NCBI RefSeq assembly: GCF_010500815.1
Contig: NZ_JAAAMG010000025.1
Coordinates: 1 to 64,000 of the forward strand
DNA: 64,000 nt
Origin: Jiella pacifica
GTDB lineage: Bacteria; Pseudomonadota; Alphaproteobacteria; Rhizobiales; Rhizobiaceae
Direction of reading: 5' to 3'
Below the pieces are notes generated by a model. That model made no database searches and was not told where the DNA came from. It saw only the letters and a program-made list of their open reading frames with translations. Below, one piece after another: positions 5,594-54,612 of this stretch. Both the position numbers and the translations under genes were made by a program. Each line of letters starts with the position of its first letter. Position 1 is the stretch's first letter.

Positions 5594-6466
5594 TCACGCG
5601 TCCAGGTTCTTGCCGATGAGGCGGACGAGAAAAATCGCGACGATGTTGGCGAGGATGACGGCGACGATGCCGCCGGCCGACGCCGCGCCGATGTCGCCGT
5701 ATGAGGTCGCCTGCTGGGCCACGAGATAGGTGATGTTGGTCGACTGCGAGCCCGGCCCGCCTTGCGTCGTCACCAGGATCTCGGCGTAGATCGACAACAG
5801 GAAGATCGTCTGGATCAGGATCACCACGGTGATCGCCCGGCTCATGTGGGGAAGCGTGATGTACCAGAAGATCGACAGCGCCTTGGCCCCGTCCATCTCC
5901 GCGGCTTCCTTCTGATCCATCGACAGCGACTGCAGCGCGGTGAGAAGGATGAGCGTGGCGAAGGGCAGCCACTGCCAGGCGACGATGATGACGATCGACA
6001 GGAGCGGCACGTCGGTCATCCAGTCGATCGGAGCGAGGCCGATCGACTGGAGAAGCTGGCCGATGACGCCGTAGACCGGGTTCATCATCATGTTCTTCCA
6101 GACCAGCGCGGCGACCGTCGGCATGACGAAGAAGGGGGCGATCACCAGGAGCCGGACGATGTTGACCCCGTAGAAGTCCTGGTCGAGCAGCAATGCGATC
6201 AGGATGCCGCCGCCCACCGTGATGGCGAGGACGCCGAGAACCAGCACCAGCGTGTTGGCCAGCGCGGCGAGGAAGGTCGGATCGGTGAGGAAGTAGCTGT
6301 AGTTCTCGAAGCCGACGAAGGGCGTCGAGAACGGGTTGTAGAGCGTGTAGTTCAGCGTCGAGAAATACAGCGTCATCGCCAGCGGCACGATCATCCAGAT
6401 CAGGAGGACGATCACCGCCGGCGCCATCATCGCGCGCGCCGCGCTCTTGGTATGCAGGGTCGCCAT
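5594..6466 (-). CDS. smoF: polyol ABC transporter permease (MalF/SmoF type)
   Basis: A 290-residue permease if started at the ATG at 6466 (MATLHTKSAARAMMAPAV). An earlier in-frame ATG at 6589 would add an arginine- and alanine-rich stretch unlike the family, so I prefer the later start although its ribosome site is weak. It has about six transmembrane segments and an EAA loop (KEAAEMDGAKALSIFWYITLP). It pairs with the SmoG-type permease. A 301-base gap with a stem-loop separates it from the binding-protein gene upstream, as is common where the binding protein is made in excess. Confidence 0.88.
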   Translation of the reverse strand: MATLHTKSAARAMMAPAVIVLLIWMIVPLAMTLYFSTLNYTLYNPFSTPFVGFENYSYFLTDPTFLAALANTLVLVLGVLAITVGGGILIALLLDQDFYGVNIVRLLVIAPFFVMPTVAALVWKNMMMNPVYGVIGQLLQSIGLAPIDWMTDVPLLSIVIIVAWQWLPFATLILLTALQSLSMDQKEAAEMDGAKALSIFWYITLPHMSRAITVVILIQTIFLLSIYAEILVTTQGGPGSQSTNITYLVAQQATSYGDIGAASAGGIVAVILANIVAIFLVRLIGKNLDA

Positions 6467-6767
6467 GCCACTTGCCCGTTCTGCCGCCGCGCGCCGGCTT
6501 GAAGAGCGCGGATGAGAGGCAGCCGCGCATCGAAAGGCGGCCGCCGGTCTGCATCTCGCCTCGCCTCCGACCCTTCGGGCATTCGACATGCCGAAGGGCG
6601 GGGACGCAAGCGTATTGGGAGGATGGCGATGTCGGGAACGAATTCGGGGGCCGCCATTCGGCAGCGCTTTCAGAACTCGGCCTTCCTCCCTGAAGGTCTG
6701 GGGCCGGGCAGCTCGTTTGGCGGCCGCCCGTACCCGTCTCGTGATCGACGAGGTGATCGTCTCGCGA
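6467..6767 (-). other. intra-operon spacer between binding protein and permease genes
   Basis: A 301-base noncoding spacer inside the polyol operon. It holds one clear hairpin at 6571-6598 and, near 6735-6765, small overlapping inverted repeats. No reading frame here looks like a protein. Confidence 0.6.
6571..6598 (-). promoter_or_regulatory. stem-loop between binding-protein and permease genes
   Basis: The arms CCCTTCGGGCAT and ATGCCGAAGGG pair with a single bulged base around a five-base loop. There is no T-run, so it does not look like a strong terminator. Its place just after a periplasmic binding-protein gene matches the known REP hairpin after malE, which protects the upstream message and lowers permease expression. 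Confidence 0.5.
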
Positions 6768-8090
6768 TCAGTTCTTGATGTAACCGCCGCGGGTCATTTC
6801 GCGGGTGGCGAGCGCCTGGGCCTGCGTCAGCGCCTGTTCGACCGAGGTCGAACCGGAAAGCGCCGCCGCCATCTGCTGGCCGACCGCCGTGCCGAGACCC
6901 TGGAACTCAGGGATCGCCGCGAACTGCAGGCCGTAATAGGGCTTGTCGTCGGTCGGCGAGGGATCGGCGTGCTGGATGGCGTTCAGCGTCGCATCGGCGA
7001 AAGGCGCCGCCTCGGTGTATTTCGGGTTCTCGTAGAGCGAGGTGCGGGTGCCGGGAGGCACGTTGGCCCAGCCCTCCTTCTCGGCGACGAGCTCGAGATA
7101 TTCCTTCGACGTCGCCCAGGAGATGAAGGTCTGCGCCGCCTCGGCCTTCTGCGAGGAGTTCGGGATCGCCAGCGACCACGCCCACAGCCAGTTGAAGCCG
7201 TCGTTCGGGCAGCCTTCGACGCCGCAGGGCGCCGGCGCGAACCCGACCTGATCGGGCACCTGGCTCTGCTTGGGATCGGTCACGAAGGAGGCCGCGACGG
7301 AGGCGTCCATCCACATGCCGCACTTGCCCTGGCCGAACAGCTGCAGGTTCTCGTTGAAGCCGTTGGAGGCGGCGCCCGGAGGACCGTATTTGGTCATCAG
7401 GTCGACATAGAGGGTGACGGCCTTCTTCCAGCCCTCGCTCTCGAACTGCGGCTTCCAGTCGGCATCGAAGTAGTTGGCGCCGAACTCGCGGGCCATGTTG
7501 CCGAGGAAGGCCATGTTCTCACCCCAGCCCGGCTTGCCGCGCAGGCAGATGCCATAGACGCCGGCATCCTTGTCGGTGACCTTCTCGGCGGCTTCCGCGA
7601 TGAAGTCCCAGGTCGGCTTCTCGGGCATGGTCAGCCCGGCCTTCTCGAACAGATCCTTGCGGTAGAGCGTCAGCACGCTCTCGGCATAGAACGGCGCGGC
7701 ATAGAGCTTGTCGTCGGAGGACAGCGCCGAGCGGATCGCCGGGATCAGGTCGTCGACGTCGTAGTCGTCGCCGAGGCCGTCGAGCGGCTTCAGCCATTCC
7801 TGCTTGGCCCAGATCGGCACTTCGTAGGTGCCGATGGTCATGACGTCGAACTGGCCGCCGCCGGTGGCGATGTCGGTGGTGACGCGCTGGCGAAGGATGT
7901 TTTCCTCCAGCGTCACCCAGTTCAGCTTGATGTCCGGATGCGCCTTCTCGAATTCGGGCGTCAGACCCTGCATGCGGATCATGTCGGAGTTGTTGACGGT
8001 GCCGATCGTCAGCGTCGTCTGCGCTTGGGCGGACGTCGCCGCGACGGCGATCAGCGCGCATGCGCTCGCCGTCAGCATGGAAAATCTCAT
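6768..8090 (-). CDS. smoE: polyol ABC transporter periplasmic binding protein (SmoE type)
   Basis: A 440-residue extracytoplasmic sugar-binding protein, first gene of the importer operon. The ATG at 8090 has GGAGG six bases upstream and gives a clean signal peptide (MRFSMLTASACALIAVAATSAQAQ) with AQA cleavage. The mature part begins TTLTIGTVNNSDMIRM and shows the FEKAHPDIKLNWV stretch of cluster-1 sugar-binding proteins. Neighbours (two permeases, MalK-type ATPase, polyol dehydrogenase) indicate a polyol ligand such as sorbitol or mannitol. Transcription probably starts in the 296-base region after the SorC gene, which holds a palindrome at 8112-8125. Confidence 0.92.
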   Translation of the reverse strand: MRFSMLTASACALIAVAATSAQAQTTLTIGTVNNSDMIRMQGLTPEFEKAHPDIKLNWVTLEENILRQRVTTDIATGGGQFDVMTIGTYEVPIWAKQEWLKPLDGLGDDYDVDDLIPAIRSALSSDDKLYAAPFYAESVLTLYRKDLFEKAGLTMPEKPTWDFIAEAAEKVTDKDAGVYGICLRGKPGWGENMAFLGNMAREFGANYFDADWKPQFESEGWKKAVTLYVDLMTKYGPPGAASNGFNENLQLFGQGKCGMWMDASVAASFVTDPKQSQVPDQVGFAPAPCGVEGCPNDGFNWLWAWSLAIPNSSQKAEAAQTFISWATSKEYLELVAEKEGWANVPPGTRTSLYENPKYTEAAPFADATLNAIQHADPSPTDDKPYYGLQFAAIPEFQGLGTAVGQQMAAALSGSTSVEQALTQAQALATREMTRGGYIKN

Positions 8091-8111
8091 GGAAGCCTCC
8101 CAGCTCTGAGA

Positions 8112-8125
8112 TGAGCATTTGTTCA
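8112..8125. promoter_or_regulatory. candidate SorC-family operator
   Basis: TGAGCATTTGTTCA is an almost perfect palindrome (one mismatch), centred 28 bases before the binding-protein start codon. DeoR/SorC-type regulators bind TTGAAC- or TGTTCA-like half-sites. A SorC-family regulator gene lies next to it, so this is a reasonable operator guess. No second copy was found near the regulator start. Confidence 0.35.
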
Positions 8126-8386
8126 ATGGCGGGGCAAAACTTCACCGTCGGCGGCGGAATGTCAATCGAATTCCATGCGGCAGTGCAGCAGCCGAGCCTT
8201 CGACCCTCTGCCCAAACAGGGAACCAGACGTGCGGGTCAGATGCAATCGTGCAGTGCGATAGATGCGAGTGCCCGCGGCGCCAAAGCAGCCCCGCGCCAG
8301 CGAGGCTCATGACAGCGCCGAACCGTCTCGCCCGTCCCTCCCTGCCCTGGCCACAACCACGCATTTGCGCCCGATTTTGCGACGGC

Positions 8387-9340
8387 TCAGCCCAACAGCC
8401 GCTCGGCCGTCGCCTCGTCGGTGATCAGGCCGTTGATCAGCCCGCCAGTCGCGGCGGCCCGGATCGCCGAGGTCTTGGCCGGGCCCATGGCGACGGCGAT
8501 GACGTCGCCGTGGCGGGTCGAGGGAATGGGAGCGCTGGCCACCCGCTCGTTGAAGCGGCAGTCGATCAGCTGGCCGGACGTATCGAAAACCCAACCGACG
8601 ATCTCGCCGGCGGCGCCCTGCCGTGTCAGGTCTTCCTGCTCCTGGCCGGTGATGAAGCCGTCGAGGACGAGCGGCGCCTTGGCGGAGATCTCGCCGACGC
8701 CGACGAAAGTCACCTCGGCCTTTGCCGCGAGCTGCAGGGTCATCTCGACCACCTTCTGCTGATGCAGGAGCTGGCGCTCCTCCGGCGTCGAGACGACGAC
8801 CGGCAGCGGCATCGGATAATGCCGCGCATTGACCTGTTCGGCCATCGAATAGATGACGTTGTAGACCGAGGCCGAGCCGTCCGGGGCGATGTTGCCGGTG
8901 AGCGAGACGATGCGGTGCTGGGTCGCGGTCATCGGCGGCAGGTGCTCGACCGCCGCGCGCAGCGTCCGGCCGGTTCCGACGGCAAGGATCGTCGGCGCCT
9001 CCCGCTTCAGGTGCCGCTCCATCTCGGCGGCGCAGGCCTCGGCGACGCCGAGGGTCGTCGAGGCGGAGGCGGGATCGGACGGCACGACCTCGCAGTAATT
9101 GAGGGCGAAGCGCTGCTTCAGGCTCTCCGCCCGCTCGAGGCAGGCGGCGATCGGGTGGTCGATGCGCACGCGAACGAGGCCCGCCGACACCGATTGCGAG
9201 ACCAGCCGCTGGGCGGCCTGCCGGGAAATGCCGAGCTTGGCGGCGATCTGGTCCTGGGTGTTGCCGGCGACGTAGTACAGCCAGCCGGCCCGTGCCGCCT
9301 CGTCCAGCCGCGTCGTTCCCTCGTCCCGCATTTTTCCCAT
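8387..9340 (-). CDS. SorC/DeoR-family sugar-responsive transcriptional regulator
   Basis: About 317 residues from the ATG at 9340 (MGKMRDEGTTRLDEAARAGW). ATGs at 9367 and 9454 are also in frame and the start is uncertain; GGAGG lies 11 bases before 9340. An N-terminal helix-turn-helix (DQIAAKLGISRQAAQRLVSQ) is followed by a SorC-type sugar-phosphate-binding domain with LAVGTGRTLRAAVEHL and VGVGEI stretches. It sits directly upstream of the polyol importer operon on the same strand, so it most likely controls that operon in response to a phosphorylated or free polyol/ketose. Confidence 0.85.
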   Translation of the reverse strand: MGKMRDEGTTRLDEAARAGWLYYVAGNTQDQIAAKLGISRQAAQRLVSQSVSAGLVRVRIDHPIAACLERAESLKQRFALNYCEVVPSDPASASTTLGVAEACAAEMERHLKREAPTILAVGTGRTLRAAVEHLPPMTATQHRIVSLTGNIAPDGSASVYNVIYSMAEQVNARHYPMPLPVVVSTPEERQLLHQQKVVEMTLQLAAKAEVTFVGVGEISAKAPLVLDGFITGQEQEDLTRQGAAGEIVGWVFDTSGQLIDCRFNERVASAPIPSTRHGDVIAVAMGPAKTSAIRAAATGGLINGLITDEATAERLLG

Positions 9341-9600
9341 CGCCTGCCGGTCCTCCAAACCGGGCATGTGTAATGTGGGAGGACGGCCGCTGGCAAACCT
9401 TTGCAGCCAGAGCCGCAGCGGCGCCACCATCCGGCGAGGTCGTCGCTGCTGCATCGAACTGCTATAAACCTTGGCACACTCGGTCGTTCTGGCACTGCAA
9501 TATGATCAGATCTTAATCAATCTCACACAAATCGAAGGGATGGCTTGATTTTCCGCCAAATGGCTTTCTCTTTGACTGTGACCGTGGACGGAGGGTGCCA

Positions 9601-11013
9601 GTGAAATCATTCGACGAGATGCTGATTCCGGAGGGAGACGTCCGCGATCCCTATGCGCGATTCTACGAATGGTTCAGGGAACAGGACGCGGACGCGCTCG
9701 GCGAAAAGGCCGGCGAGGCGGAAGCCTTCTTCCGGCGCACCGGGATCACCTTCAACGTCTATGGGCAGGAGGAAGCGGCGGAACGGCTGATCCCGTTCGA
9801 CCTCGTGCCCCGCATCATGGCGAAGGCCGAATGGGACAACCTGGCCGAGGGGATCGAACAGCGCGTCACCGCGCTCAACGCCTTTCTCGACGATCTCTAC
9901 CACGATCAGGAAATCATCAAGGCCGGGATCGTGCCGGAACGGCTGATCGCCGGCAACGAGGCGTTTCTGGAGGAAATGCGCGGGTTTCGGCCGCCCGGCG
10001 GCGTCTACACTCACATCATCGGCACCGACATCGTGCGCTGCGGCGAGAACGAGTTCTACGTGCTGGAGGACAATGCACGCACCCCTTCCGGCGTCTCCTA
10101 CATGATCGAGAACCGGGAGACGATGATGCAGATGTTTCCCGAGCTGTTCGCGCAGAACCGGGTGCGGCCGGTCGAGACCTATCCTCACCACCTGCGCCGC
10201 TCGCTCGCCGCGGTCGCGCCGCCGGCCTGCGAAGGCACGCCGACGATCGCCGTGCTCACCCCCGGCATCTACAACTCGGCCTTCTTCGAGCACGCCTTCC
10301 TCGCCGACCAGATGGGCGTCGAGCTGATCGAGGGCTCGGACGTCGCCGAGATCGACGGGCGCATCCAGATGCGCACCACCGAGGGCTACAAGCCGATCGA
10401 CGTGATCTACCGCCGGGTCGACGACGCCTTCCTCGATCCGAAGGTGTTCAATCCCAATTCGGTGCTCGGCATTCCCGGCATCATGGAGGTCTACAAGAAC
10501 GGCGGCATCACCATCGCCAACGCGCCGGGCACCGGCATTTCCGACGACAAGGCGATCTATTCCTACATGCCGGAGATCGTCGAGTTCTACACCGGCGACA
10601 AGGCCAAGCTGCAGAACGTGCCGACCTGGCGATGCGCCGAGGACGACAGCCTGAAATACGTGCTCGAACATCTGGAAGAGCTAGTGGTCAAGGAGGTGCA
10701 CGGCTCCGGCGGCTACGGCATGCTGGTCGGCCCGACCTCGACGCGGGAGGAGCGGGAGATCTTCGCCGAGAAGCTGAAGAAGCGGCCGGCCAACTACATC
10801 GCCCAGCCGACGCTGGCGCTCTCCACCGTGCCGATCCTCGTCGACGGCGGGCTGGCGCCGCGCCACGTCGACCTGCGCCCCTTCGTCCTCGTTTCCGACA
10901 AGGTCCGCATCATTCCCGGCGGCCTGACCCGCGTCGCCCTCCAGGAGGGCTCTCTGGTGGTCAATTCCAGCCAGGGCGGCGGCACCAAGGACACCTGGGT
11001 TTTGAGGGACTGA
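9601..11013 (+). CDS. circularly permuted ATP-grasp type 2 protein
   Basis: A 470-residue member of the circularly permuted ATP-grasp family (CP_ATPgrasp type 2). The GTG at 9601 is chosen because GGAGG ends six bases before it; a GTG two codons earlier overlaps that site. Family stretches are visible: VLEDNARTPSGVSYMIENR, the STVP...RPFVL block, and VKEVHGSGGYGMLVGP near residue 365. The family is predicted to make amide or peptide bonds, possibly tagging. It is followed after 3 bases by an alpha-E gene and then an Anbu protease gene, a recurrent partnership. The substrate is unknown. Confidence 0.88.
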   Translation: MKSFDEMLIPEGDVRDPYARFYEWFREQDADALGEKAGEAEAFFRRTGITFNVYGQEEAAERLIPFDLVPRIMAKAEWDNLAEGIEQRVTALNAFLDDLYHDQEIIKAGIVPERLIAGNEAFLEEMRGFRPPGGVYTHIIGTDIVRCGENEFYVLEDNARTPSGVSYMIENRETMMQMFPELFAQNRVRPVETYPHHLRRSLAAVAPPACEGTPTIAVLTPGIYNSAFFEHAFLADQMGVELIEGSDVAEIDGRIQMRTTEGYKPIDVIYRRVDDAFLDPKVFNPNSVLGIPGIMEVYKNGGITIANAPGTGISDDKAIYSYMPEIVEFYTGDKAKLQNVPTWRCAEDDSLKYVLEHLEELVVKEVHGSGGYGMLVGPTSTREEREIFAEKLKKRPANYIAQPTLALSTVPILVDGGLAPRHVDLRPFVLVSDKVRIIPGGLTRVALQEGSLVVNSSQGGGTKDTWVLRD

Positions 11014-11016
11014 GCG

Positions 11017-11970
11017 ATGGCACTTCTCGGACGCACCGCAAACGGCCTGTTCTGGATGTTCCGCTACATCGAGCGGGCCGAAAACACCGCCCGCCTGCTC
11101 GACGCCGGCCAGCGCATCGCCCTCACCAACCTGTCCTCCGAGCCCGACGAGTGGCAATCGGTATTGGTCTCGGCCGGGGTCGAGGCCGCCTATGCCGCCA
11201 AGCACCAGGACCATGATCCCGACACCGTCGTCGACTTCATGCTGCGCGACCGGGACAACCCGTCGAGCGTGCGCGCCTCGCTGGAAACCGCCCGCACCAA
11301 CGGGCGCATGGTGCGCACGGCGCTCAGCCGCGAGCTCTGGGAGGCGGTGAACGAAAGCTGGCTGGTGATCCAGCGGCGGCTCTCCTCTCCCGTGACGGCG
11401 CGCGAGCTCCCTGCCGTGATCGACCTCGTCAAGCGGCAAGGCGCACTCATCCGCGGCACGTTCCAGACGACGATGCTGCGCAACGAGATCTTCGACTTCT
11501 GCAATCTCGGCGCCTTCATCGAGCGCGCCGACAACACCGCCCGCATCCTCGACGTCAAATACTGGCTGCTCCTGCCCGAGCATAGCCAGGTCGGCTCGGC
11601 GCTCGACAACTTCCAGTGGCGCTCGATCCTGCGCTCGGTCTCCGCGCACCGCTCCTATGCCTGGGAGTATGACGGCGAGTACCGGGCGGTGAACATCATC
11701 GACTTCCTGATGCTCAATCGCCGCATGCCGCGCTCGCTGGCCTATTGCTACACGGTGATCGAGGAAAGCCTGAAGTACCTCAACCGCAACTACGAGGTCC
11801 GCCACCCCTGCTTCGAGACGGCGACAGAGATCAACCAGCGGCTTTCCGACACGAGCGTCCGGCAGACCATCGACGGCGGTCTGCACGAATTCATCGAGGT
11901 GTTCATCCGCGACAACAATCGCCTCGCCCAGGAGATCGGCCAGAACTACCGCTTCTATCCGACCGCTTGA
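11017..11970 (+). CDS. alpha-E domain protein (DUF403)
   Basis: A 317-residue, helix-rich protein with the characteristic opening LLGRTANGLFWMFRYIERAENTARLLD, repeated in the middle as FIERADNTARILDVKYWLLLP. It has no catalytic motif that I can see. The family always accompanies the circularly permuted ATP-grasp protein and is thought to act with it. The start lies 3 bases after the ATP-grasp stop, so the two are translationally linked. In many genomes a transglutaminase-like gene follows; here it does not. Confidence 0.9.
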   Translation: MALLGRTANGLFWMFRYIERAENTARLLDAGQRIALTNLSSEPDEWQSVLVSAGVEAAYAAKHQDHDPDTVVDFMLRDRDNPSSVRASLETARTNGRMVRTALSRELWEAVNESWLVIQRRLSSPVTARELPAVIDLVKRQGALIRGTFQTTMLRNEIFDFCNLGAFIERADNTARILDVKYWLLLPEHSQVGSALDNFQWRSILRSVSAHRSYAWEYDGEYRAVNIIDFLMLNRRMPRSLAYCYTVIEESLKYLNRNYEVRHPCFETATEINQRLSDTSVRQTIDGGLHEFIEVFIRDNNRLAQEIGQNYRFYPTA

Positions 11971-12185
11971 ACGGGAAGCATTGAACCGCGCTCGGCCGCC
12001 CTCGTCGGCGGCCTCCGCCGACCGCCGGCGATCGTTTCCGGCACGGTAGGTGACACATTGTCGCCGCAGGGCATCAAAAAGGTTTTGGGCAAGTCTGATC
12101 TGTTAGTTGTCACCAGGCTTTTTTTCGCCGAATGATCGCCCCGAGCAGGGGCGACGTCCTCTGCACTGCGAGGCAACTGACTTCG

Positions 12186-12917
12186 ATGACCTACTGCGTT
12201 GGGCTTCTGGTGGAGCGCGGCCTGGTGTTCATGTCCGACACGCGGACGAATGCCGGCCTCGACAACATTTCCGTCGTCTCCAAGATGAAGACCTGGGAAG
12301 TGCCGGGCGAGCGCTTCCTTTGTCTGCTCTCGGCCGGCAATCTGGCGACGACCCAGGCGACCGTCTCGCTGCTCGACGAGCGCAAGCTGGCGCCGGCCGA
12401 ACGCCAGCCGAGCATCCTCACCCAGCCATCGATGTTCCAGACGGCGACCCTGATCGGCGAGACCGTCAAGGAAGTGATCTCCGGCAGCGCCCAGGGCGGC
12501 CAGAGCGCCGACGCGGTGTTCTCCGCCTCCTTCATCCTCGGCGGCCAGATCAAGGGCGGGCGCCCGCGCCTGTTCATGATCTATCCGGAAGGCAACTTCA
12601 TCGAGGCGGGCCGCGACAATCCCTTCTTCCAGATCGGCGAGCACAAATACGGCCGGCCGATCATCATCCGGACCTACGACCCGGAAATGTCGCTGGAGGA
12701 CTGCGCCAAGCTTCTGCTGGTCTCCTTCGATTCGACCATCAAGTCGAACCTCTCGGTCGGCCTGCCGATCGACATGCAGTTCTACGAAAAGGACAGCTGC
12801 GTCAAAGGCTACCGCCGTCGCTTCGACCAGCGGGACGAATATTATCGCACGATCTCCGACGGCTGGTCCGACGCGCTGAAGAGCGCCTTCGACGCCCTGC
12901 CCGCTTTCGAGCGGTGA
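12186..12917 (+). CDS. proteasome-type protease, Anbu family
   Basis: A 243-residue homologue of proteasome beta-type subunits (bacterial Anbu). The ATG at 12186 gives MTYCVGLLVERGLVFMSDTR, so that Met removal exposes Thr2 as the N-terminal nucleophile. The conserved SDTRTNAGLDN stretch and the later SFDSTIKSNLSVGLPIDM match the family. In-frame codons upstream to 12132 are unlikely to be used since they would bury the nucleophile. It lies 215 bases after the alpha-E gene and is probably in the same functional set. Anbu forms a ring- or helix-shaped hydrolase in the cytoplasm; its targets are unknown. Confidence 0.9.
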   Translation: MTYCVGLLVERGLVFMSDTRTNAGLDNISVVSKMKTWEVPGERFLCLLSAGNLATTQATVSLLDERKLAPAERQPSILTQPSMFQTATLIGETVKEVISGSAQGGQSADAVFSASFILGGQIKGGRPRLFMIYPEGNFIEAGRDNPFFQIGEHKYGRPIIIRTYDPEMSLEDCAKLLLVSFDSTIKSNLSVGLPIDMQFYEKDSCVKGYRRRFDQRDEYYRTISDGWSDALKSAFDALPAFER

Positions 12918-51721: not shown

Positions 51722-53292
51722 TGGCAAGAGCCAAGACGACGCCCCCGGTTGCGGCTCCGACGACAGCGAAGCGCGAGCCCCTCTTCACCGGCCGGGACTG
51801 GGATTTCAACCTGCTCGACCGCGTCTACGGCGCGATCCAGGAAATCGCCGAGACCGAGCTGAAGCTCGACACCTATCCCAACCAGATCGAGGTGATCTCG
51901 TCGGAACAGATGCTCGACGCCTATGCCTCGACCGGCATGCCGCTGTTCTACAAGCACTGGTCCTTCGGCAAGCATTTCGTGCGCAACGAGACGCTCTATC
52001 GCAAGGGCTGGCAGGGCCTTGCCTACGAGATCGTCATCAACTCCTCGCCATGCATCGTCTACGTCATGGAGGAAAACTCCGCGACGATGCAGACTTTGGT
52101 CCTGGCCCATGCCGCCTTCGGCCACAACCACTTCTTCAAGAACAACTACTGCTTCAAGCAGTGGACCGACGCGACCAGCATTCTCGACTACCTGTCCTTC
52201 GCCAAGAAATTCGTCGCCTCCTGCGAGGACCGCTACGGCCAGGAGAGCGTCGAGCAGATCCTCGACGCCGCCCATGCCCTGATGAGCCACGGCGTCCACC
52301 GCTATCCCGGCAAGCACGCGCTCGACCTCAAATCCGAGCAGCGCCGGCTGGAAGAGCGCCAGGCCTTCGCCGAAAAGCATTTTTCCGACCTCTGGCGCAC
52401 TTTGCCGAAGACCGCCAGCCGCAAGAAGCGCGACGGCGAGGACGAGCGGCGGCGCCAGATGCTCGGCCTGCCCGAGGAGAACATCCTCTATTTCCTCGAA
52501 AAGAACGCCCCGCGCCTCGCCCCGTGGCAGCGCGAACTGATCCGCATCGTCCGGCAGATCGCCCAGTATTTCTATCCCCAGCGCCAGACCAAGGTGATGA
52601 ACGAGGGCTGCGCCACCTTCAGCCATTACCGGCTGATGACGAGGCTGCACGAGAGCGGCCAGATCACCGACGGCTCCTTCATGGAGTTCCTGCACTCCCA
52701 CACCAGCGTCGTCTTCCAGCCCGAATATGACGACCCGCGCTATTCGGGGATCAACCCTTATGCGCTGGGCTTCGCCATGATGGAGGACATCGAGCGGATC
52801 GCCATCGCCCCGACGCCGGAGGACCGCGCCTTCTTCCCCGACTTCGCCGGCTGCGGCGACGGCTACGGCGTCCTGCGCGACGCCTGGGAGAATTTTCGCG
52901 ACGAGAGCTTCATCCTGCAGTTCCTCAGCCCCAACGTCATCCGCAAGCAGAAGCTCTTCCGGCTGGTCGACGATTCGGAGGACGACGAGATCGTCGTCGC
53001 CTCGATCCACGACGAGCGCGGCTACAAGGCGGTGCGGCAGTCCCTGTCGCGGCAGTTCGACGTCGGGCGGCAGGATCCGGACATCCAGGTGGCCGACGTG
53101 GACCTTGCCGGCGACCGCAAGCTGATCCTCCACCACAACGTCGTCGACGGCATCACCCTCGACGGCAAGGACGCCGCCAAGGTGCTCCACCACCTCGCCA
53201 ATCTCTGGGGCTACGACGTCAAGCTCTTGGAGATCGAGGACGGCGAGACCGTCGCGGCGCACGACGGCTCGCCGTCGCGGGCGTTCCGGTAG
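51721..53292 (+). CDS. SpoVR family protein (YcgB-like)
   Basis: A 523-residue SpoVR-family protein. Conserved blocks include YPNQIEVISSEQMLDAYASTGMP, HWSFGKHF, NHFFKNNYCFKQWTD, MSHGVHRYPGK and NEGCATFSHYRLM. It completes the prkA-yeaH-spoVR set and begins in the TGATG overlap with yeaH. The biochemical function is still unclear in the literature I know; the set is linked to stationary phase and nitrogen stress in enterics. Confidence 0.94.
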   Translation: MARAKTTPPVAAPTTAKREPLFTGRDWDFNLLDRVYGAIQEIAETELKLDTYPNQIEVISSEQMLDAYASTGMPLFYKHWSFGKHFVRNETLYRKGWQGLAYEIVINSSPCIVYVMEENSATMQTLVLAHAAFGHNHFFKNNYCFKQWTDATSILDYLSFAKKFVASCEDRYGQESVEQILDAAHALMSHGVHRYPGKHALDLKSEQRRLEERQAFAEKHFSDLWRTLPKTASRKKRDGEDERRRQMLGLPEENILYFLEKNAPRLAPWQRELIRIVRQIAQYFYPQRQTKVMNEGCATFSHYRLMTRLHESGQITDGSFMEFLHSHTSVVFQPEYDDPRYSGINPYALGFAMMEDIERIAIAPTPEDRAFFPDFAGCGDGYGVLRDAWENFRDESFILQFLSPNVIRKQKLFRLVDDSEDDEIVVASIHDERGYKAVRQSLSRQFDVGRQDPDIQVADVDLAGDRKLILHHNVVDGITLDGKDAAKVLHHLANLWGYDVKLLEIEDGETVAAHDGSPSRAFR

Positions 53293-53306
53293 GGGTGGCT
53301 TCGAAC

Positions 53307-53933
53307 CTACTGCTGCGGATGGTCCGAGGCGATCCGGTCGCCGAGTTCGACGATCACTGACACGTCCTGACCCGTAATCGGGGCATCAAGCTGTCCGTGC
53401 GCCAGTGCATTCCGTTTGCGGGAGAGTTCCAGCAGCCGCCGGTGTTCGTCCTGACTGATCTCGCCAGCGTCGAGAAGGGCCAACAATCGCGTCGAAACCG
53501 GCCCTTTCGCCTCGGCCGGAAACCTTTGTCTGAGAGCCGCTTCAAAGGCGGCCCACGCGAGAAGGAACGCCGCCCGCGCATTTTGCGCCAAGAGTTGAGC
53601 GGCAGAGAAAAAGGCGCTCTTGATCCACTCGGTCGCGACCGGCTCAACGAGCGGCGTCTCGGATGGTGCATAGAGAATTTCGAGCCGCCAATCGTTGCGG
53701 CCCTTGAGAAGTTCTTGAAGCATACGAAGCTGGTACTCAGCTGCGTTGCTGCCGGGCCGCTGGACCTCGATCAAAAGCGATGGATCACGCCCCACGGCGA
53801 TTGCATCGGGGCGAAATCCTCCGAAGAACTTTGGCACCTGCGCCTCCGTCGGCTCCCGGATTACGGTATAGCCTCGCGCCGTCCAGTGGGGCTCCATCGC
53901 GTCGATTACGCCCCGTTCGGTAATGGCGAGCAT
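53307..53933 (-). CDS. REase-like nuclease fused to a HEPN-like domain
   Basis: A 208-residue two-domain protein. The N-terminal part (about 1-90) looks like a PD-(D/E)xK nuclease: D43 (GFRPDAIAV) and E56-x-Q58 (LLIEVQRPGS), with a Gln at the usual Lys place. The C-terminal part (about 105-200) is an all-helical HEPN-like domain with R174-x4-H179 (RKRNALAHG), the RNase motif of that superfamily. GAGGAG lies eight bases before the ATG at 53933. It overlaps the RusA-like gene by 28 bases, so the two proteins are made together. This is inference from motifs; no known family name is claimed. Confidence 0.62.
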   Translation of the reverse strand: MLAITERGVIDAMEPHWTARGYTVIREPTEAQVPKFFGGFRPDAIAVGRDPSLLIEVQRPGSNAAEYQLRMLQELLKGRNDWRLEILYAPSETPLVEPVATEWIKSAFFSAAQLLAQNARAAFLLAWAAFEAALRQRFPAEAKGPVSTRLLALLDAGEISQDEHRRLLELSRKRNALAHGQLDAPITGQDVSVIVELGDRIASDHPQQ

Positions 53934-54349
53934 CGCTGCAACTCCTCGTGAAGATCGTCGGTGATTCTCAGATAGACGACCGGCCCTTCCGAATTCATCG
54001 CCTCAGCAAGATCCCTGCTCGCGGCCGAGAACGAGAAGATGGCGTCAGGTTCGAATTTTTGCACAACAATCCGATGTATCTGCCTGTCCTCCAAATACAC
54101 AACTCGCGTCATCGCATCGAGTATGTGCTTCACGCGGTTGTCGATGTCTCCCGGAAGAACCGTTGCCGGAAAAATATAGATGGTCACCGCGAGTGGTTGA
54201 AGTAAAAGCCAGGCATCGAGCGGAATGACGGCACGCGCCGCCTGCCGAACGCGCTCCTGCCACTCATCGCGTGATCGCGCCGACCCTTGCAGGCTTGTCG
54301 GCGTGCCCTGGACAAGGAACTCCAACGGCAGAGGAGGTTCGAGAGACAA
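53906..54349 (-). CDS. RusA-family Holliday junction resolvase-like endonuclease
   Basis: A 147-residue protein from TTG at 54349, which has a perfect AGGAGG five bases upstream; an ATG at 54421 has no good site. It begins with the RusA signature LEFLVQGTPTSLQ. The active-site set D68, D70, N71, K74 and D88 (PGDIDNRVKHILDAM, then LEDRQ) aligns with D70, D72, N73, K76 and D91 of E. coli RusA. RusA proteins are usually phage-borne, yet here no phage gene is near. It is transcribed with, and overlaps, the nuclease-HEPN gene. Confidence 0.8.
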   Translation of the reverse strand: MSLEPPLPLEFLVQGTPTSLQGSARSRDEWQERVRQAARAVIPLDAWLLLQPLAVTIYIFPATVLPGDIDNRVKHILDAMTRVVYLEDRQIHRIVVQKFEPDAIFSFSAASRDLAEAMNSEGPVVYLRITDDLHEELQRCSPLPNGA

Positions 54350-54612
54350 TTGAACCTCCTTTGCGATCGAACATGCGCCGAGATTAACGTTCTGGTTACA
54401 CACTGGCAAACCATTCCTCATGCGTGCATCGCCCCCCTACAGGCGAGCGATAGGCCGAAATCGCGCCTTCACCTCGCCGAGCGAAACGGCTATGAGCCGA
54501 TCTCAGTTTATGTGCCGGAAGATCATCCCATCAGATGGGAACGGCCGCAGCACGCAGGCGGGTCGTCGCACTGGCGCGGCCCCGCGGCAGCGATGACGAA
54601 GGAGCGGATTGG

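Follow-up and report, generated by a model that had tools for sequence, protein, structure and literature searches.

A RusA-type endonuclease gene and a gene coding for an AHJR-HEPN fusion protein, which overlap on the minus strand of Jiella pacifica DNA, form a conserved two-gene module, and there is very little doubt that the pairing is real. The pair lies in contig NZ_JAAAMG010000025.1, in a stretch of 64,000 nucleotides referred to here as the window, and the range of the module extends from Alphaproteobacteria to Bacteroidota and Chloroflexota. Sequence comparisons suggest a mobile module of defence type, a candidate anti-phage or anti-element system, for which the chances appear evenly balanced; that its main role is directed against mobile elements is moderately probable.

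The RusA-type gene (53906..54349, minus strand, 147 amino acids), recognized by reading of the open frame, Pfam, alignment and Foldseek, starts with TTG and is preceded at a distance of 5 nt by the ribosome-binding site AGGAGG (54355..54360, minus). The fusion gene (53307..53933, minus, 208 amino acids, ATG start), identified from its open frame and Pfam, overlaps the RusA gene by 28 bases, and its ribosome-binding site GAGGAG (53942..53947, minus), 8 nt upstream of the ATG, is placed within the last RusA codons (HEEL). The preliminary description, made from the sequence alone, had reported two overlapping minus-strand frames with this overlap and with ribosome sites, and both frames and both sites were found as reported. 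The 28-base overlap is a peculiarity of this genome, caused by a longer RusA end: among the 56 pairs measured an overlap of stop and start occurs in 41, mostly of the usual 4 or 1 bases. The RusA C-terminus of two genus mates reads ...DDLHEELR.

Downstream of the pair the convergent spoVR gene ends at 53292, 14 bases from the fusion gene, and upstream an epimerase gene begins at 54535. The protein families of the flanks, prkA, DUF444 and spoVR on one side and the epimerase, TauE and UppP/BacA on the other, agree with the earlier placing of the pair among housekeeping genes without phage neighbours. Scans for promoters, terminators and Rfam families in the vicinity of the pair gave no match.

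RusA enzymes cut branched DNA. The window protein matches the Pfam RusA family (PF05866) with 36.6 bits (cut-off 22.8, E 7.8e-9), and its predicted catalytic residues D68, D70, K74 and D88 are in place, which upholds the RusA-like endonuclease with a complete predicted active site described previously; in E. coli RusA the catalytic residues are numbered D70, D72, K76 and D90. The single-chain AlphaFold model (pLDDT 92.0) matches E. coli RusA (1q8r) in Foldseek with E 1.6e-6 and probability 1.00, the sequence-profile match to RusA is 1.1e-4, and in PHROGs RusA families are matched, the best being the phage family PHROG 140 (4.6e-8).

The fusion protein begins with an REase-like domain of the AHJR class (Hjc-like, PD-ExK fold; 53634..53921, minus), which matches the Pfam AHJR-like family (PF18743) over residues 5–100 with 55.7 bits (cut-off 26.1, E 4.6e-15). 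It is followed by a HepT-like HEPN domain (53325..53612, minus, about residues 108–203), where the match to DUF4145 (HEPN, PF13643; residues 110–197) reaches 18.3 bits and stays below the cut-off of 23.1. NCBIfam gave for both proteins weak matches, all far under the cut-offs, and PHROGs nothing better than 0.02 for the fusion protein. The single-chain AlphaFold model has a pLDDT of 92.8 and a pTM of 0.73. No Foldseek match of this model was found at E <= 0.001; ranked by E, a clamp-loader chain (probability 0.21) stands first, followed by REase-fold nucleases (R2 retrotransposon, Bax1) and then Hjc resolvases with probabilities up to 0.97. HepT chains match the second half of the protein (probability up to 0.99, TM 0.57 by target, best E 0.16), and the sequence-profile matches are to the ST1444 Hjc (1.6e-4) and, for the HEPN part, to HepT (0.06). 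The models thus support the RusA, REase-type and HEPN folds, the last mainly by agreeing weak matches together with an invariant motif, and AlphaFold modelling, which had been proposed as a check on the REase and HEPN folds, speaks for both.

HEPN domains often act as RNases, and the R-x4-6-H motif is present in the window copy as R174-N175-x3-H179, so that the HEPN-like domain named in the preliminary description is retained, its HepT fold matches being weak but agreeing. The PD-(D/E)xK-like domain named there stands as to its REase-type fold, given the AHJR profile and the Hjc matches, but not as an active nuclease: D43 and E56 are present, the lysine position 58 is occupied by Gln (IEVQ), and the active site is incomplete.

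The same division is seen across the family. In a motif alignment of 72 fusion and 67 RusA rows, the counts of which take in near-duplicate loci, two odd loci (L085 and L087) and the RusA pieces of frame-broken loci, D68 and D70 of RusA are found in 67/67 rows, K74 in 64/67 and D88 in 66/67, and R174 and H179 of the HEPN domain in 71/71 each, one fusion row being gapped there. Of the AHJR residues, D43 is found in 70/71 rows, E56 in 59/71 and K58 in 32/71. A tree of 63 rows, with 28 of its 60 inner branches open and used only for this count, requires a minimum of 14 changes in the K58 column, and four genomes of the genus have Q, Q, K and M at residue 58. E131 of the fusion protein occupies all 72 rows of the alignment, yet it is Gln in two genus mates. 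Comparison of the genus mates indicates purifying selection, with dN/dS of 0.13–0.18 for RusA and 0.15–0.32 for the fusion gene, as calculated with our own Nei-Gojobori script at dS values up to 1.6. RusA and HEPN are read as two putative conserved catalytic centres, with the AHJR domain probably serving mainly for binding; this domain more probably reads DNA than cuts it, because the catalytic lysine is kept in under half of the copies and is Gln in the window.

The pairing was examined from the side of each gene. Among 297 genomes of the order, eight have matches to the fusion protein, and in 8/8 the RusA gene is directly upstream (frame-broken in genome G218). At the level of the phylum 19 of 398 genomes match, and the six full-length matches, three of them already in the order set, all have RusA upstream. 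The other 13 of these 19 genomes hold HEPN-only matches without an adjoining RusA, many of them DUF86/HepT by eye, and were excluded as members; one such match (L018) is a longer multidomain protein. Among the loci in named genomes a RusA gene is detected by profile upstream of the fusion gene in 53/58, a count that takes in the frame-broken RusA of L065, of L067 (the G218 genome) and of L087 (a metagenome bin). In the remaining five the RusA core is deleted (L031, L036, L056), only about 120 bases of contig are present upstream (L072) or the HEPN protein is a different one (L085). In plasmids this RusA occurs in 6 of 72,556 records, and the same six carry the adjoining partner.

Starting from RusA, the same 297 genomes give eight strong matches, all in the genomes already found with the fusion protein, and three weak generic ones without the partner. 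Among 385 genomes of the class there are seven strong matches, comprising two known pairs, four new intact pairs and one genome (G837) with both genes broken, and eight weak ones, all lacking the partner. In 249 genomes of another order 5/5 strong matches are paired (one, in G583, was already in the phylum search), and the subtype is sharply set apart, the weakest paired match being 2.7e-35 and the next, unpaired one 1.1e-13; the 25 weak-match loci examined there, from 186 genomes with weak matches only, contain no pair. Taken together, the RusA subtype was found in 18 genomes, of which 16 have both genes intact, G218 has only the partner intact and G837 neither, and in none is an intact RusA left without an intact partner; intactness here means profile coverage, frames being read base by base only in the named loci.

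Distances between RusA proteins and between fusion proteins correlate over 57 pairs with r 0.80, a value attained in 0 of 2000 permutations, as expected of genes that are inherited jointly. The co-occurrence check proposed in the preliminary description therefore holds from AHJR-HEPN (8/8, 53/58 and 6/6 plasmids) as well as from RusA (18 genomes), and a chance overlap of two reading frames is ruled out by co-occurrence in both directions. Within the genus, RusA of three loci is closest between L117 and L118 (dS 0.38), and the fusion gene between L118 and L120 (dS 0.41), a mismatch that hints at recombination between the two genes.

A separate observation concerns the generic RusA without a HEPN partner, to which the weak matches in 186/249 genomes of the order of genome G314 belong. 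It adjoins what is presumably a class II fumarase-like gene in L156, L157, L170 and probably L161 (3–4 of 5 loci; not in L158), and in that order it may belong to the core chromosome rather than to phages.

The distribution of the module is patchy, as the 8/297 genomes of the order indicate, and the same is true at a single site. Just downstream of spoVR in ten genomes of the genus, the full pair is found in three, a RusA-less copy in one (G658) and nothing homologous within ~1.5 kb in six, one of which (G649) has no match elsewhere in its genome either. The RusA-less copy of G658 is identical over the compared bases to that of Aurantimonas sp. 22II-16-19i (L031), and the spoVR-polA junction of G661 lacks 755 bases found in G658. 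The stretch past spoVR (window 53293 onward; L117–L126) differs among most of these ten genomes, and forms a gene-turnover spot beside prkA-DUF444-spoVR. A decayed copy with both genes broken (L141, in G837) suggests that the module may be lost as a whole.

The GC3 of the pair is under the median of its neighbours in 54/55 loci for RusA and in 55/60 for the fusion gene (median difference -0.18 and -0.17, correspondingly), the controls being -0.005 as the median of 271 small neighbour genes (18 at or below -0.17) and 0.0 for 191 genes within two places; since the gene calls reward high GC3 and low-GC3 neighbours are under-called, this contrast is partly built in and overstated. The pair may accordingly be regarded as having a foreign codon composition, to a degree smaller than these values imply.

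No relative of the fusion protein was found among 50,697 phage records at E 0.1, the RusA relative from L009 as a query found none in the phage records at E 1e-3, and of 10 candidates that a pattern taken from the fusion alignment picked out in viral contigs, none was confirmed. Seventeen RusA relatives are present in viral contigs, all without the partner. The earlier statement that the pair lies outside any prophage agrees with these searches, as no relative of the pair is present in the phage and viral collections searched. An origin as a prophage remnant is not supported, fusion relatives being absent from the phage records and viral RusA relatives being unpaired.

The preliminary description had further inferred a small anti-phage or genome-maintenance module and proposed a search for defence-island enrichment. 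A link to defence is borne out in part: known defence systems stand beside the pair in at least 7 of 58 loci, a figure that comes from 20 hand-picked proteins of nine loci and stands without a clean background rate, but the window is not among them and its own neighbours include no defence genes. Nor does PADLOC 2.0.0 (2023; 5,027 models) hold a family matching either protein at E up to 10. In L037 the pair is flanked by PD-T7-1 and CBASS on one side and, with one gene intervening, by Gabija on the other (CBASS cyclase 3.7e-201, 2TM effector 3.3e-78, PD-T7-1 2.5e-59, GajA 6.9e-221, GajB 2.6e-177). Elsewhere its neighbours are a helicase together with a type IIG restriction enzyme (L038, 3.9e-279), AbiEi and AbiEii (L083, 4.4e-57 and 8.5e-94), a dCTPase gene (L080, 4e-157), a DNA methyltransferase (L054, MTase_II 6.4e-96) and LmuA (L055, 6.1e-40). 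L084 of Hymenobacter has SspC (4.4e-273) and SspD (4.2e-112), and there (6169-12770) the pair is located between SspC and SspD/SspB-like phosphorothioation defence genes, as if in an effector slot. No named system appears among the PADLOC matches listed for L043 and for L009, the latter outside the 58 loci.

In the Ti plasmid locus L009 (6646-8580) and in the Rhizobium defence island L037 (10645-12570) the pair is immediately followed by an ATPase-like gene in convergent orientation, related between the two loci. In PADLOC it has only a weak REase_II match (about 1e-9), and it is possibly a further linked defence gene.

At 1e-5, PADLOC families number 125 for 148 genes within two places of the pair, 22 for 140 genes five to eight places away and 3 for 51 window genes, a rough contrast, as one gene can match many families and family counts are not gene counts. 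The near set is made of 148 of 165 genes after 12 entries, redundant or odd and including the window, were dropped and genes of <90 or >700 residues excluded, and the distant one of 140 of 261 genes, mostly a random draw. Strong matches occur in the distant control as well, with a phospholipase effector model at 1.3e-105 in 2/140 among the matches listed. The commonest Pfam families among the 148 neighbours are metabolic and transport ones, and the first 45 neighbour clusters contain common enzyme and transporter families and the synteny of close kin, with no specific third gene.

How the two proteins would work together can be proposed tentatively. They would act jointly on invading DNA, where RusA and the AHJR domain, mainly the DNA-reading part, would recognize DNA that is branched or recombining in a replicating phage or plasmid, and RusA would cut it. 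The HEPN RNase, quiet in uninfected cells, would be set free, and its cleavage of RNA would stop growth or the invader. Such a junction-gated immunity, in which RusA and a catalytically relaxed Hjc-like domain read the branched DNA of the invader and license the HEPN RNase, with RusA also destroying DNA, is a possibility to which we give less than even weight, and the proposed order of trigger and effector is doubtful to the same extent.

A direct restriction of DNA is the less probable of two ways in which the same parts could serve defence, though a plausible minority reading: RusA as the effector would cut foreign branched DNA, and AHJR-HEPN would target or restrain it, RNA cleavage being regulatory or minor. 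RusA is indeed the best conserved part, with a mean identity of 40% as opposed to 29% for AHJR and 33% for HEPN, and wherever it is intact among the 18 genomes located through RusA, the partner is intact too. Natural knock-outs bear on the same point. RusA is lost alone in several loci, as would be expected if it is costly: its core is gone and its last codons are kept in L031, L036 and L056, and its frame is broken in L065, L067 and perhaps L087. The retained tail would be explained by its HEEL codons (GAGGAG), which in the window sequence serve the fusion gene as its ribosome-binding site. All of these copies keep R and H of the HEPN domain, as do all 71 aligned rows, so the RNase chemistry seems to matter, contrary to a minor role. 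In L077, a metagenome bin, an intact RusA stands beside a HEPN domain with an internal stop, and five losses of RusA against one of HEPN are too few to give a direction, the asymmetry being suggestive only. Since the RusA-broken loci keep AHJR-HEPN, the HEPN protein is tolerated without RusA, which suggests that AHJR-HEPN alone may be non-toxic.

A role as an accessory to host recombination or repair, that is, as an alternative junction resolvase that brings a regulator of its own, is improbable. Both proteins have junction-resolvase folds, and on a Ti plasmid the neighbourhood of the pair includes imuA, a ligase and two polymerases, one of the Y family and one error-prone. Such a role is made less likely by the rarity of the pair, both in the order and at the spoVR site of the genus (three of ten genomes and one RusA-less copy), and by the RuvC of the genome itself (4.8e-44), in which no second RusA match was found. 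The HEPN RNase would, moreover, have no obvious place in repair. The genome-maintenance role suggested in the preliminary description loses weight for these reasons, and the pair as a substitute for RuvC is similarly weakened by the presence of RuvC.

Least probable is a toxin-antitoxin or addiction pair in which HEPN would be the toxin and RusA the antitoxin, for although the two genes are small and overlapping, the HEPN domain is related to the HepT toxin fold and some copies are on plasmids, five loci keep AHJR-HEPN with its R and H despite a deleted or frame-broken RusA, which weakens the case for RusA as an antitoxin, the catalytic residues of RusA are kept, needlessly for an antitoxin, and the window has neither a nucleotidyltransferase partner nor the HxY motif of MntA-HepT.

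The module would link a DNA-junction nuclease and an RNase within a single unit. Whether bacteria sense the branched DNA of invaders could be tested on it directly, and suitable controls seem to be available in its conserved active sites and in the copies that naturally lack RusA. If the proposed gating of the HEPN RNase by branched DNA is true, this would be an immunity triggered by intermediates of recombination or replication and built from a resolvase family known from phages.

Part of this architecture has been described. In the portion of the survey by Anantharaman et al. (2013, PMC3710099) that was consulted, HEPN-M (DUF86) domains are occasionally fused with an archaeal Holliday junction resolvase-like REase, and REase fusions are listed for DUF4145; RusA has no occurrence in the searched main text of that article. 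It has none in the consulted text of PMC12839542 either, and in PMC12737573 and PMC11980593 the match is an author name. No description of the RusA/AHJR-HEPN pair was found in the literature searched, which includes few subscription journals and no preprints. As far as these sources and the sequences go, what appears to be new is the RusA pairing, while an AHJR-type REase fused to HEPN, of the HEPN/nuclease conflict kind, was known already. From the AHJR-HEPN proteins in the consulted part of PMC3710099 the present one differs in its RusA partner and, in the window copy, in the absence of the PD-ExK lysine.

Compared with the PF05866 family, the RusA of the pair has the same profile (over the cut-off), fold (probability 1.00) and conserved catalytic D, D, K and D, but unlike generic RusA it forms a separate subfamily, is paired with AHJR-HEPN and is absent from the phage records searched. 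The AHJR domain is similar to the archaeal Hjc resolvases (ST1444, Sso and Afu Hjc), as the profile match of 1.6e-4 to ST1444 and the fold matches indicate, and is different in that its catalytic lysine is missing in 39/71 copies and that it is fused to HEPN. With the MntA-HepT toxin-antitoxin system the module shares the HEPN fold and the R-x4-H motif, HepT chains being the best structural matches of the HEPN part. The partner, however, is RusA and not a nucleotidyltransferase, and the MntA-HepT motif RxxxxHxY, with the Tyr two residues past the His, is not reproduced, as the corresponding column holds Tyr in 1/71 copies.
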